A stretch of DNA of 36,435 bases from an uncultured Ureaplasma sp. (lineage in GTDB: Bacteria; Bacillota_I; Bacilli_A; Mycoplasmatales; Mycoplasmoidaceae), in the NCBI GenBank assembly GCA_947039545.1, contig CAMQZA010000005.1:1-36435 (forward strand). Direction: 5' to 3'. A program made the position numbers and the translations under genes. Under the pieces are notes generated by a model. The model did not search any database and was not told the DNA's origin. It saw only the letters and a program-made list of their open reading frames with translations. How positions within the stretch are numbered: the stretch's first letter is position 1; every line of letters begins with the position of its first letter. Below are positions 11,731-14,852 of this stretch, in pieces.

Positions 11731-12654
11731 TTATTCATTTAATAATAAATAACTAATTGCAATTGATGAAATTAAATCATCTATTGTATTTGATCTTGAT
11801 GTTAATATAAATGGGAAAGTTAAACCTATTACTAATCCAGCAAAGATTGCATTCGAAAAATGAACAAGTGATTTAATTAATATATTGCCACTTTCAATAT
11901 CATTGACTAAAAGAATATTAGCTTTACCAGCTACTATATCTTTATTATTTTTTATTTCTTTACTTTTCTTATTAAGAGCAATATCAAATTGCATTGGACC
12001 TGAAACATAACAATTCTTGATTTCATTATTTTCATTCATTATTTTTAATTTATCAGCATCTATTGTTGAATTCATTTTTTCATAAATTTTGTCTTTAGCA
12101 CAAAGACAAGCTACATATGGTTTCTTATTTTCAATCTTATTATATAAATAGACAGCGTTATTAATGATTGATTTTTTTTGATTTAGCGTTGGTGCAATAT
12201 TCATTGCTCCATCTGTGATTAAATAAAATTGTTCTCAATCCTTATTAAATAGAACAGCGACATGACTTATAAAGTCTTTTTCAATAAATCTATATTCTTT
12301 TTTTAAAATAAATTTTAAAATATCTGAACTCTCAATTATTCCTTTTAGTAAAATATCAGCTTTCTTCTCTTTTAGTAGATTCATTGAAACTAGTAGTGAA
12401 TCTAAATCATCTTTTGTTTCGTAAAATTTATTATCATCAAGTTTAAAATCAATATTAGGAATAGCTGAATTAATTTTCTCTTTATTTCCAACAATTAAAT
12501 AATCAACTAAATTTAAATTAATAAATTTTTCTAAAGCTTTAAAATAATTCTCATTATATGGATTAATAATCAATATGATTGGAGTTCTATTTATTTTTCT
12601 ATTAAGAGCTTTTTCAATAAAAAACTCATTATTAATAATTTTTTGATTATCCAT
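11731..12654 (-). CDS. Phosphate acyltransferase, phosphotransbutyrylase (Ptb) type
   Basis: This 307-residue enzyme belongs to the phosphate acetyl/butyryl-transferase family, which exchanges CoA for phosphate on a short acyl group so that a kinase can make ATP. Regions matching the Ptb branch include LLKGIIESSDILKFILKKEYR (residues about 100-120), YVSGPMQFDIAL, and the C-terminal signature AGKANILLVNDIESGNIL...SLVHFSNAIFAGLVIG...ILTSRSN. It is shorter at the N-terminus than typical Pta. No butyrate or acetate kinase gene is adjacent. The ATG at 12654 fits the family's start; the upstream region has no strong Shine-Dalgarno. Its stop codon abuts that of uvrC. The actual acyl substrate cannot be read from the sequence. 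Confidence 0.8.
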
Positions 12655-12805
12655 AAAAGTTCCGAACTAAAATATTAATTAAATTATAACTTCTAATGTT
12701 TTTTCTTTATATGAAATATTTATAAATAAATACAATAAATATCTTTTAATCTAATTTTATTTATAAAATTAGAGAGTAAATAAATTATTATTTTACAAAA
12801 CATAT

Positions 12806-12880
12806 GGTGCGGTAGCCAAGTCTATAAAGGCGATAAATCTTTTTTTATGATCATTAGTGAAAATCTAATCTGCACCTCCA
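12806..12880 (+). ncRNA. tRNA-like RNA gene related to tRNA-Cys, with aberrant loops
   Basis: The 75-nt element folds as a cloverleaf. Acceptor: 12806-12812 with 12870-12876 (7 bp, one G-T). D stem: GCC 12815-12817 with GGC 12829-12831. Anticodon-like stem: ATAAA 12833-12837 with TTTAT 12844-12848. T stem: ATTAG 12853-12857 with CTAAT 12865-12869. The 3' end TCCA is encoded and has U73 like tRNA-Cys. Odd points: the apical loop is only 6 nt (TCTTTT) and carries no normal anticodon; the D loop lacks the GG pair; the T loop is TGAAAAT without TTC. The D-arm context AGCCAAGT and the 3' TCCA match the tRNA-Cys gene 100 bp downstream. It may be a non-decoding tRNA-like RNA or an unusual pseudogene. 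Confidence 0.6.
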
Positions 12881-12895
12881 TTTTAAAAATAAATT

Positions 12896-12946
12896 AAAAA
12901 ATAGTAGTTAAATCTTTTTAAAAAGTTTAATTGCTATTTTTTTTGT
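12896..12946 (+). terminator. Terminator after the tRNA-like gene
   Basis: A stem of about 17 bp with two G-T wobbles (AAAAATAGTAGTTAAA against TTTAATTGCTATTTTT) encloses a small CTTT/AAAG hairpin and is followed by a run of T. It separates the tRNA-like gene from tRNA-Cys and suggests a separate short transcript. Confidence 0.65.
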
Positions 12947-12984: not shown

Positions 12985-13058
12985 GGCGCCATAGCCAAGT
13001 GGTAAGGCCGTAGACTGCAACTCTGCTACCGTCAGTTCGAATCTGACTGGCGCCTCCA
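12985..13058 (+). tRNA. tRNA-Cys (GCA)
   Basis: 74 nt, canonical cloverleaf: acceptor GGCGCCA with TGGCGCC, anticodon loop CTGCAAC, T loop TTCGAAT, discriminator U, CCA encoded. A TATAAT sits at 12957-12962, upstream. It is the intact counterpart of the aberrant element at 12806. Confidence 0.97.
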
Positions 13059-13063
13059 TATTT

Positions 13064-13140
13064 GTATCCTTAGCTCAATTGGATAGAGCATCTGACTACG
13101 GATCAGAAGGTTGGGGGTTCGACTCCTCTAGGGTACGCCA
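13064..13140 (+). tRNA. tRNA-Arg (ACG)
   Basis: 77 nt with acceptor GTATCCT/AGGGTAC, anticodon stem-loop CTGACTACGGATCAG giving ACG, T loop TTCGACT and encoded CCA. It follows tRNA-Cys by 5 nt and is probably cotranscribed with it. Confidence 0.95.
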
Positions 13141-13150
13141 ATTTTTATTC

Positions 13151-13197
13151 AATCTTTTTTTATTTTAAAACAAAATATAAGAAAAGATTTTTTTTAT
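13151..13197 (+). terminator. Probable terminator after tRNA-Cys/Arg
   Basis: AATCTTTT (13151-13158) pairs with AAAAGATT (13182-13189) across a long AT-rich loop and is followed by a T run. The long loop makes this only moderately convincing. Confidence 0.45.
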
Positions 13198-13238
13198 AAA
13201 AAGTATATTTTATCAGAAAATAGACAAAATAAATTCGG

Positions 13239-13279
13239 TAATAATTATATATTATTTTCAAAATAATATATAATTATTA
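13239..13279. repeat. Near-perfect 20-bp inverted repeat in the tRNA cluster
   Basis: A 20-nt arm of A and T (13239-13258) is repeated in reverse complement (13260-13279) with a single C between, so a cruciform or long hairpin can form. No T run follows directly, so it is not an ordinary terminator. It lies between tRNA-Arg and the promoter of the tRNA-Pro operon. Its role is unknown. Confidence 0.75.
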
Positions 13280-13290
13280 TGTTATAAAAA

Positions 13291-13317
13291 TTGATTATAT
13301 AAAAGCGTTTTTATAAT
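13291..13317 (+). promoter_or_regulatory. Promoter of the tRNA-Pro operon
   Basis: TTGATT (13291-13296) and TATAAT (13312-13317) with a 15-nt spacer. The expected transcription start falls at or just at the 5' end of tRNA-Pro (13323). The short spacer lowers confidence in the -35. Confidence 0.5.
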
Positions 13318-13322
13318 TAAAA

Positions 13323-13399
13323 CGGGAAGTAGCACAGCTTGGTAGTGCACCTGGTTTGGGACCAGGGGGTCGCAGGTTCGAATCCTGTCTTCCCGACCA
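13323..13399 (+). tRNA. tRNA-Pro (TGG)
   Basis: 77 nt with acceptor CGGGAAG/CTTCCCG, anticodon loop TTTGGGA giving TGG, T loop TTCGAAT and encoded CCA. It is the first of a run of seven closely spaced tRNA genes. Confidence 0.97.
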
Positions 13400-13404
13400 T
13401 TTTT

Positions 13405-13481
13405 GGCTAGATAGCTCAGTTGGTTAGAGCGATCGGTTCATACCCGGTAGGTCCAGAGTTCGACTCTCTGTCTAGCCACCA
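13405..13481 (+). tRNA. tRNA-Met (CAT), probably elongator
   Basis: 77 nt with acceptor GGCTAGA/TCTAGCC and anticodon CAT in loop TTCATAC. The fully paired acceptor excludes the initiator. Of the two non-initiator CAT tRNAs here, this one better resembles elongator Met; sequence alone does not prove it. Confidence 0.85.
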
Positions 13482-13486
13482 ATAAG

Positions 13487-13564
13487 GCTTCTGTAGCTCA
13501 ATTTGGTTAGAGCCCCCGACTCATAATCGGTCGGTTACAGGTTCGAGTCCTGTCAGAAGCACCA
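13487..13564 (+). tRNA. CAT-anticodon tRNA, probably tRNA-Ile2 (lysidine-modified)
   Basis: 78 nt with acceptor GCTTCTG/CAGAAGC, anticodon loop CTCATAA, T loop TTCGAGT and encoded ACCA. Three CAT tRNAs in one cluster normally mean Met, Ile2 and initiator Met. The D loop is one base longer than usual (AATTTGGTT). Assignment to Ile2 needs TilS to modify C34. Confidence 0.75.
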
Positions 13565-13596
13565 ATTTGCTTTACAAAAATAAAAAAAATTAATTA

Positions 13597-13605
13597 TGTT
13601 ATAAT
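13597..13605 (+). promoter_or_regulatory. Extended -10 promoter before tRNA-Ser
   Basis: TGTTATAAT (a TG-n-TATAAT extended -10) ends 13 nt before the tRNA-Ser gene, in a 54-nt AT-rich gap. It suggests an internal promoter for the Ser-fMet-Asp-Phe group. Confidence 0.5.
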
Positions 13606-13618
13606 TAATTTGAATGCT

Positions 13619-13711
13619 GGAGGATTACCCAAGTCCGGTTGAAGGGATCGGTCTTGAAAACCGAAAGGTGGGGCAACCTGCGCGGGGGTTCGAATCCCTC
13701 ATCCTCCGCCA
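13619..13711 (+). tRNA. tRNA-Ser (TGA)
   Basis: 93 nt with the long variable arm of serine tRNAs (GGTGGGGCAACCTGCGC region), acceptor GGAGGAT/ATCCTCC, anticodon TGA in loop CTTGAAA, encoded CCA. Confidence 0.96.
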
Positions 13712-13718
13712 TTTTTAT

Positions 13719-13796
13719 CGCGGAATAGAGCAGCTCGGTTAGCTCGTCAGGCTCATAACCTGAAGGTCGGAGGTTCAAATCCTTCTTCCGCAACCA
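13719..13796 (+). tRNA. Initiator tRNA-fMet (CAT)
   Basis: Acceptor CGCGGAA faces TTCCGCA, leaving the C1-A72 mismatch that marks the bacterial initiator. Anticodon loop CTCATAA and encoded CCA. The three G-C pairs usual above the initiator anticodon loop are here TCAGG/CCTGA, so only partly kept. Confidence 0.93.
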
Positions 13797-13798
13797 TT

Positions 13799-13874
13799 GG
13801 TTCTGTAGTGTACTGGTTAACATGCCTCTCTGTCACAGAGGAGATTGCGGGTTCGACTCCCGTCAGGACCGCCA
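13799..13874 (+). tRNA. tRNA-Asp (GTC)
   Basis: 76 nt with acceptor GGTTCTG/CAGGACC, anticodon loop CTGTCAC giving GTC, T loop TTCGACT, discriminator G and encoded CCA. Two nucleotides after initiator tRNA. Confidence 0.97.
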
Positions 13875-13877
13875 TAT

Positions 13878-13953
13878 GGCTCTGTAGCTCAGTCGGTAGA
13901 GCAACAGACTGAAAATCTGTGTGTCGGGAGTTCAATTCTCCCCGGAGCCACCA
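13878..13953 (+). tRNA. tRNA-Phe (GAA)
   Basis: 76 nt with acceptor GGCTCTG/CGGAGCC, anticodon loop CTGAAAA giving GAA, T loop TTCAATT and encoded CCA. Last gene of the cluster, just before a terminator. Confidence 0.97.
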
Positions 13954-14021: not shown

Positions 14022-14852
14022 CTATAATTTAGTAATATCTATTTCTCCACTATAAACAAATTGAGCTGGACCTTGCATAAAATAGCTATCGCCTTTTTTC
14101 TCAATAGTTAATTTACCAAGCGCTTGATGGATATTGATAGCACCTTTTGTTAAGTTCTTAATATTACTTAAAGCAGCAACAGCGCAACTACCAGTACCAC
14201 ATGCAAGAGTTATTCCTATTCCTCTTTCTCATGTTTTAAGTTCGATATTATTTTCATCAATAACTTTAGCAAAATTAAAATTAGCGTCACTTGGAAATAA
14301 ACTAGGAATATTTAGTTCATCTACAACTTCATAAATTATTTTATCATCTAGTTCATTAACAAAAATAACTACATGAGCTGGACCAAAATTAACAGCTGAA
14401 TATTCAAACTCAAATCCAGATTTTAATTTATGTTTAACATCAAATATTTTTTCTAAATCACTTATTGCTGGAATGTTTTTAGGTGTTCAATCAAATGTTT
14501 GCATATTAACTTCAACAACAAACGGATCTTTTGAAATAATATTAATAATTTTTAAACCATCATCAGTTAAAATTTCGATTTGATCCTTTTCATATCCTTG
14601 TCTTTTAAAGAAATATGATAAACATCTAATAGCATTACCACACATTTTATCTCTATAACCACTAGGGTCAATAAAAGTCATTTGATGTGGATTAGTTTTA
14701 GTTCCTGCAATAACAAGACCATCACTTCCAATTCCTGTAAATCTATTACAAATTTTAACAGCTAGTTTTTCAAGATTTTCATTTTCATCTAATTCTTTGT
14801 AATCAACGATAACAAAATCATTTCCTAAACCATGGTATTTTTCAAATTTCAT
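14022..14852 (-). CDS. DapF-family racemase/epimerase (diaminopimelate epimerase-like)
   Basis: This 276-residue protein has the PLP-independent two-cysteine fold of diaminopimelate epimerase. The N-terminal HGLGNDFV motif, the first catalytic Cys in MCGN (about residue 72) and the second in ERGIGITLACGTGS (about residue 224) are present, so it should be active on an amino acid alpha-carbon. The region before the first Cys, where DapF usually reads N-x-D-G-S and binds the substrate carboxylate, reads IDPSGYRDK with one extra residue. The gene starts 32 nt after the potD stop, with a GAGGAAA ribosome site, and is the last gene before a shared terminator, so it is likely in the polyamine operon. 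Wall-less bacteria need no diaminopimelate for murein; lysine synthesis or another racemase role is possible. Confidence 0.85.

Follow-up and report, generated by a model that had tools for sequence, protein, structure and literature searches.

The window, the whole 36,435-nucleotide stretch of Ureaplasma DNA analyzed here, carries ten tRNA genes called by ARAGORN, nine of which sit in a cluster at positions 12985 to 13953 that opens with an intact tRNA-Cys gene (anticodon GCA; 12985 to 13058, forward strand). The gene order of this cluster, tRNA-Cys-Arg-Pro-Met(-Met)-Ser-Met-Asp-Phe, is maintained across genera of the family (L086 to L091 and L101). Ahead of the cluster and on the same strand, at 12806 to 12880, lies a tRNA-Cys-like RNA without an anticodon, which is not among the ten calls; its 72-nt cloverleaf body, counted through the discriminator U73, occupies 12806 to 12877 and is followed by an encoded CCA at 12878 to 12880. 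The gene upstream of this element is on the opposite strand and faces away from it, and that place is taken by a different gene in a sister species, the “uncultured Ureaplasma sp.” isolate ERR3140039_bin.4 (G003), where the element occupies the same site. The two sisters differ strongly in a phosphotransacetylase-like gene (PF01515; window 11731 to 12654; L069, 676 to 1599), which is 46% identical between them, compared with 85 to 98% for the other 19 neighbors that were aligned. G003 also has an extra gene of 580 aa, which we take to resemble a choline/carnitine acyltransferase, between the phosphotransacetylase-like gene and the element. Beyond the cluster, at 14022 to 14852, the window contains a diaminopimelate epimerase-like gene (PF01678), in the genome of a group without a cell wall.

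Every one of the 20 pairs of a tRNA cloverleaf forms in the element, and both the coordinates and the four intact stems given in the original prediction, which was made by reading the sequence without database searches, turned out to be exact. The 5′ arm of the acceptor stem, GGTGCGG (12806 to 12812), makes seven of seven pairs with 12870 to 12876, one of them G-U, and is joined by TA to the D arm (12815 to 12831), in which the stem GCC/GGC closes the loop AAGTCTATAAA, with CT where GG would be. A single G leads to the arm at the anticodon position, ATAAA-TCTTTT-TTTAT (12833 to 12848), whose stem consists of A-U pairs throughout and whose loop contains no anticodon; members of Rfam family RF00005 have an anticodon loop of 7 nt and a defined anticodon, but in the element this loop has 6 nt in the window and 5 nt in G003. 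After GATC comes the T arm, ATTAG-TGAAAAT-CTAAT (12853 to 12869), which retains T54 and A58 and has G-A in place of T55-C56, and the RNA ends with the acceptor 3′ arm CTGCACC, U73, and CCA (12870 to 12880). The loop anomalies singled out at the outset, namely, an apical loop of 6 nt, a D loop without GG, and a T loop without TTC, are all present. Minimum-energy folding was dropped as a line of evidence: the single-sequence fold has unremarkable stability (z = −1.46), with the cloverleaf at −15.5 kcal/mol versus a minimum of −16.3 kcal/mol, and since folding energy is uninformative, the structure of the element rests on comparison.

Searches of 351 bases with the Rfam model RF00005 left the element below the gathering threshold and unmatched even at E values of up to 10. 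A covariance model (R2) built on 24 tRNA-Cys genes of the family, with the element excluded from training, matches it across positions 1 to 75 at 49.7 bits (E of about 6e-9), and the G003 counterpart scores 53.0 bits under the same model. Judged by sequence homology, the element is a relative of tRNA-Cys over its full length. Its identity to tRNA-Cys genes is 57 to 66%, with the neighboring tRNA-Cys no closer than the others, and the element must therefore be old and not a fresh copy; a recent tandem duplication of that neighbor, to which it is just 57% identical, is ruled out. Two other origins of constraint or sequence were also rejected. Coding constraint is inconsistent with the lack of any open reading frame of 20 aa or more spanning the element and with a 1-nt indel inside it between the species, and an attachment-site remnant or mobile element is inconsistent with the lack of matches in plasmids, phages, or viral contigs.

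The way in which the stems depart from those of ordinary tRNA-Cys speaks to how the sequence diverged. Compared with the tRNA-Cys at 12985, seven pairs of the element have changed on both sides, with no pair broken; the compensatory changes named in the original prediction, in the acceptor and T stems, are each there, and beyond them acceptor pair 6 has gone from C-G to G-U and two pairs of the anticodon stem have changed on both sides. When the comparison is extended to each of 21 tRNA-Cys genes, 4 to 8 stem pairs are changed on both sides and 0 of 20 are broken (P at most 5e-5), whereas random substitution of the same number of sites would break 6 to 10 pairs on average. Some of these changes could predate the loss of decoding, having accumulated while the RNA was an ordinary tRNA. 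The all-A/U stem ATAAA/TTTAT, however, has no counterpart among the 21 genes, which suggests that the stem at the anticodon position, at least, probably persisted beyond the loss of decoding.

The elbow of a standard tRNA is formed by the pairs G18-Psi55 and G19-C56 (PMC4810234). The aligned dinucleotides of the element, CT in the D loop and GA in the T loop, are complementary in the same register (C-G and U-A), a match that would arise accidentally at a fixed register about 1 time in 16 and is thus no more than a lead, and the core contacts U8-A14, G15-C48, and U54-A58 are all retained. The description of this RNA as one with missing elbow contacts is thus unsupported as it was put; the elbow may instead have been re-paired, with GG/UC replaced by CU/GA.

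The element appears to form a transcription unit of its own. The sequence TATAAAAT (12762 to 12769, forward strand), which falls in a block shared with G003 and went unscored by the promoter scan, is plausibly the −10 element of its promoter. A 10-bp inverted repeat, TCTAATTTTA-TTTA-TAAAATTAGA (12750 to 12773), overlaps this site and is weaker in G003. Between the element and tRNA-Cys, at 12896 to 12944 on the forward strand, is an intrinsic terminator composed of an A/U-rich hairpin and eight T residues. The hairpin (12896 to 12942) has z scores of about −6 (−6.0) in the window and −5.5 in G003, and five pairs of its stem differ between the two, three of them on both sides, with all still pairing; the terminator suspected at the outset is, on this evidence, real. 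Consensus scans for promoters and terminators returned nothing at the site, the terminator scan demanding three G-C pairs, of which the hairpin has fewer. Because the upstream gene is divergent and differs between the two genomes, the terminator would serve the element alone.

Across the body of the element, 68 of the 68 positions compared are identical between the window and G003, and the sole differences affect position 26 and the apical loop (6 nt in the window, 5 nt in G003); change between the species is concentrated where the anticodon would have sat. Identity is 75% upstream of the element, 80% in the trailer, and 87 to 88% in the spacers between tRNAs, and four-fold degenerate sites of 20 neighboring genes are 83% identical. 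At identities of 0.80 to 0.88, the probability of finding all 68 positions unchanged is 3e-7 to 2e-4. Conservation of the element between species therefore exceeds neutral expectation, a result that rests on one species pair in which both genomes are incomplete drafts. The stem-breaking substitutions in relatives that would point to a pseudogene, according to the original prediction, do not occur in G003, the one relative with the element, in which the apical loop is what has changed. The argument that this is not simple decay is supported by the same genome, given its intact stems, unchanged body, and terminator pairing kept by compensatory changes.

The distribution of the element is narrow. 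Among the six genomes of the genus, it is present in that of the window (G000) and in G003; three others (G001, G004, and G005) have the tRNA-Cys-Arg-Pro-Met-Met-Ser cluster with no element before it, and the sixth (G002) is too incomplete to score. The search for relatives that had been suggested thus succeeded in G003 and drew a blank elsewhere, the model search, which covered 320 genomes in the order, yielding no copy beyond these two. A scan of 84,980 species for the sequence pattern returned G003 plus one match in Eubacterium (L114; 17.8 bits, E of 0.26), which we attribute to chance, and other weak matches within the genus, at most 20.5 bits, are unsupported.

We consider it reasonably likely that the element is a functional, lineage-specific, non-decoding small RNA derived from tRNA-Cys and maintained by selection. 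That it is a tRNA-like RNA with no usable anticodon, as first proposed, accords with an apical loop of 6 nt, or 5 in G003, on a body that is otherwise the same in both species. Its host genome, a draft of about 640 kb, is one from which useless genes are expected to be lost. Transcription would start at about 12770, and RNase P and RNase Z would trim the product as they do a tRNA. Unable to decode, the RNA would be retained for its acceptor/T/D half, and the loss of the anticodon, the altered elbow bases, and an outer T stem made entirely of A/U pairs (49-65, 50-64, and 51-63) would exclude it from EF-Tu and the ribosome. Among possible mechanisms, the one we favor, though only tentatively, is that the RNA offers an acceptor end of the tRNA type to an enzyme that binds tRNA outside the ribosome, such as CysRS, a maturation enzyme, or an aminoacyl transferase. 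The genome content includes a normal tRNA-Cys beside the element and a single full-length CysRS in each of the two genomes, which rules out a special CysRS paralog. To our knowledge, the bacterial tRNAs that have left translation all retain an anticodon. If the reading is true, an RNA that has everything but the anticodon would separate the functions of the tRNA 3′ end and elbow from decoding and reveal which tRNA-binding enzymes work without an anticodon. Standard tRNA finders overlook such RNAs, and more of them may hide beside ordinary tRNA genes.

Two alternatives, each of which we regard as unlikely, come nearest to this reading. The element could be a disused tRNA-Cys pseudogene that by chance has changed little since the species split: the anticodon and elbow consensus are gone, the three relatives of the same genus lack it, and pseudo-tRNAs are known in Mollicutes, one example being MPNt26 of Mycoplasma pneumoniae, which is dispensable in transposon screens (PMC12494982). 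Such a history, however, sits poorly with an invariant body amid flanks that are 75 to 88% identical, with zero broken pairs despite 4 to 8 double changes, and with a terminator whose pairing has been maintained through compensation. Doubtful to a similar degree is an uncharged decoy, an RNA that would bind a tRNA-interacting protein (CysRS, RNase P, RNase Z, or another) and thereby tune its supply for the adjacent tRNA-Cys. Retention of the acceptor stem, U73, CCA, and the T and D arms alongside loss of the anticodon fits this role, as does the placement of the element directly upstream of tRNA-Cys, although that position may merely reflect descent.

We give less credence to the idea that the element is the tRNA-like module of a larger base-pairing regulatory RNA composed of a leader, the tRNA-like part, a trailer, and the terminator, as proposed for the tRNA-Other of Bacillus cereus, which is produced within larger RNAs (PMC3399842). 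An unprocessed transcript would indeed include a leader of about 35 nt and a 62-nt trailer with the terminator, but both are far less conserved than the body, at 75% and 80% identity, respectively, which argues that the body is the working part.

Comparably improbable is a dedicated carrier of Cys outside the ribosome, to be charged by CysRS via U73 and relieved of its amino acid by a transferase of the LPG_synthase_C/MprF type. Cys identity requires U73 and the anticodon GCA, yet minihelices gain it from U73 alone (PMC9976931), and since the element has kept U73 and lost GCA, the other major determinant, CysRS could charge it with Cys, though probably just weakly. In the T stem, pairs 49-65 and 51-63 are not those of the neighboring tRNA-Cys, and the same two pairs are changed in the staphylococcal tRNA-Gly that escapes EF-Tu; such variants also occur in ordinary tRNA-Cys (A-U at 49-65 in the gene of G003, T-A at 51-63 in some relatives), so that they are suggestive only. 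Both genomes have one PF09924 protein near cysS, the single candidate for a tRNA-dependent transferase that came to light. The one in G000 is a 302-aa LPG_synthase_C protein (L189, 3546 to 4454, contig C10). A divergent gene lies between it and cysS, and the two do not share an operon. PF09924 occurs in 39 of 95 genomes of the family, including G001, G004, and G005, which are without the element, and this rules it out as a specific partner. More improbable still is the fuller version in which an anticodon-less Cys carrier, charged via U73 alone, would be handed to an MprF-like transferase and marked off from decoding tRNAs by its re-paired elbow (C-G and U-A for G-U and G-C). Finally, the possibility that the element is a tRNA that does decode, by way of an unusual anticodon loop, can be set aside almost entirely, for although a 4-bp stem in G003 leaves a 7-nt loop, ATTTATT, the same choice in the window leaves 8 nt, neither the length nor the sequence of the loop is conserved, and the genome's capacity to decode Cys is already complete.

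A non-decoding RNA descended from tRNA-Cys has partial parallels among known systems. The peptidoglycan tRNA-Gly of Staphylococcus aureus have left translation with their anticodon retained; GlyRS charges them, and they supply FemX/A/B. The parallel with them, drawn in the original prediction, is fair in that T-stem pairs 49-65 and 51-63 are changed (the staphylococcal changes are listed in PMC9976931) and the D and T loops are altered in both; it is only partial in that those tRNAs keep anticodons and are charged, and in that they serve a Fem pathway, whereas no match to a Fem-type transferase (FemAB; PF02388) was found in G000 or G003 and mycoplasma-type cells are wall-less. The tRNA-Other of B. 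cereus (PMC3399842) is likewise a tRNA-like RNA outside translation, with low chargeability (which is only predicted here), a presence in few related species, and a terminator downstream, but it keeps a Trp anticodon (CCA) and belongs to a transcript of over 1 kb, unlike the element, with no anticodon loop and a predicted transcript of about 170 nt. The pseudo-tRNA-Ser MPNt26 of M. pneumoniae is, like the element, a Mollicute tRNA copy rejected by ARAGORN; it differs in its close match to the parent tRNA (about 90% identity) and in being dispensable (PMC12494982), whereas the element is 57 to 66% identical to any tRNA-Cys and conserved between species. As for tmRNA, the element has no coding part, no G3-U70 identity for Ala, an ordinary 5-bp arm at the anticodon position, and no ARAGORN call, but it resembles tmRNA in combining an acceptor/D/T half with the loss of the anticodon.
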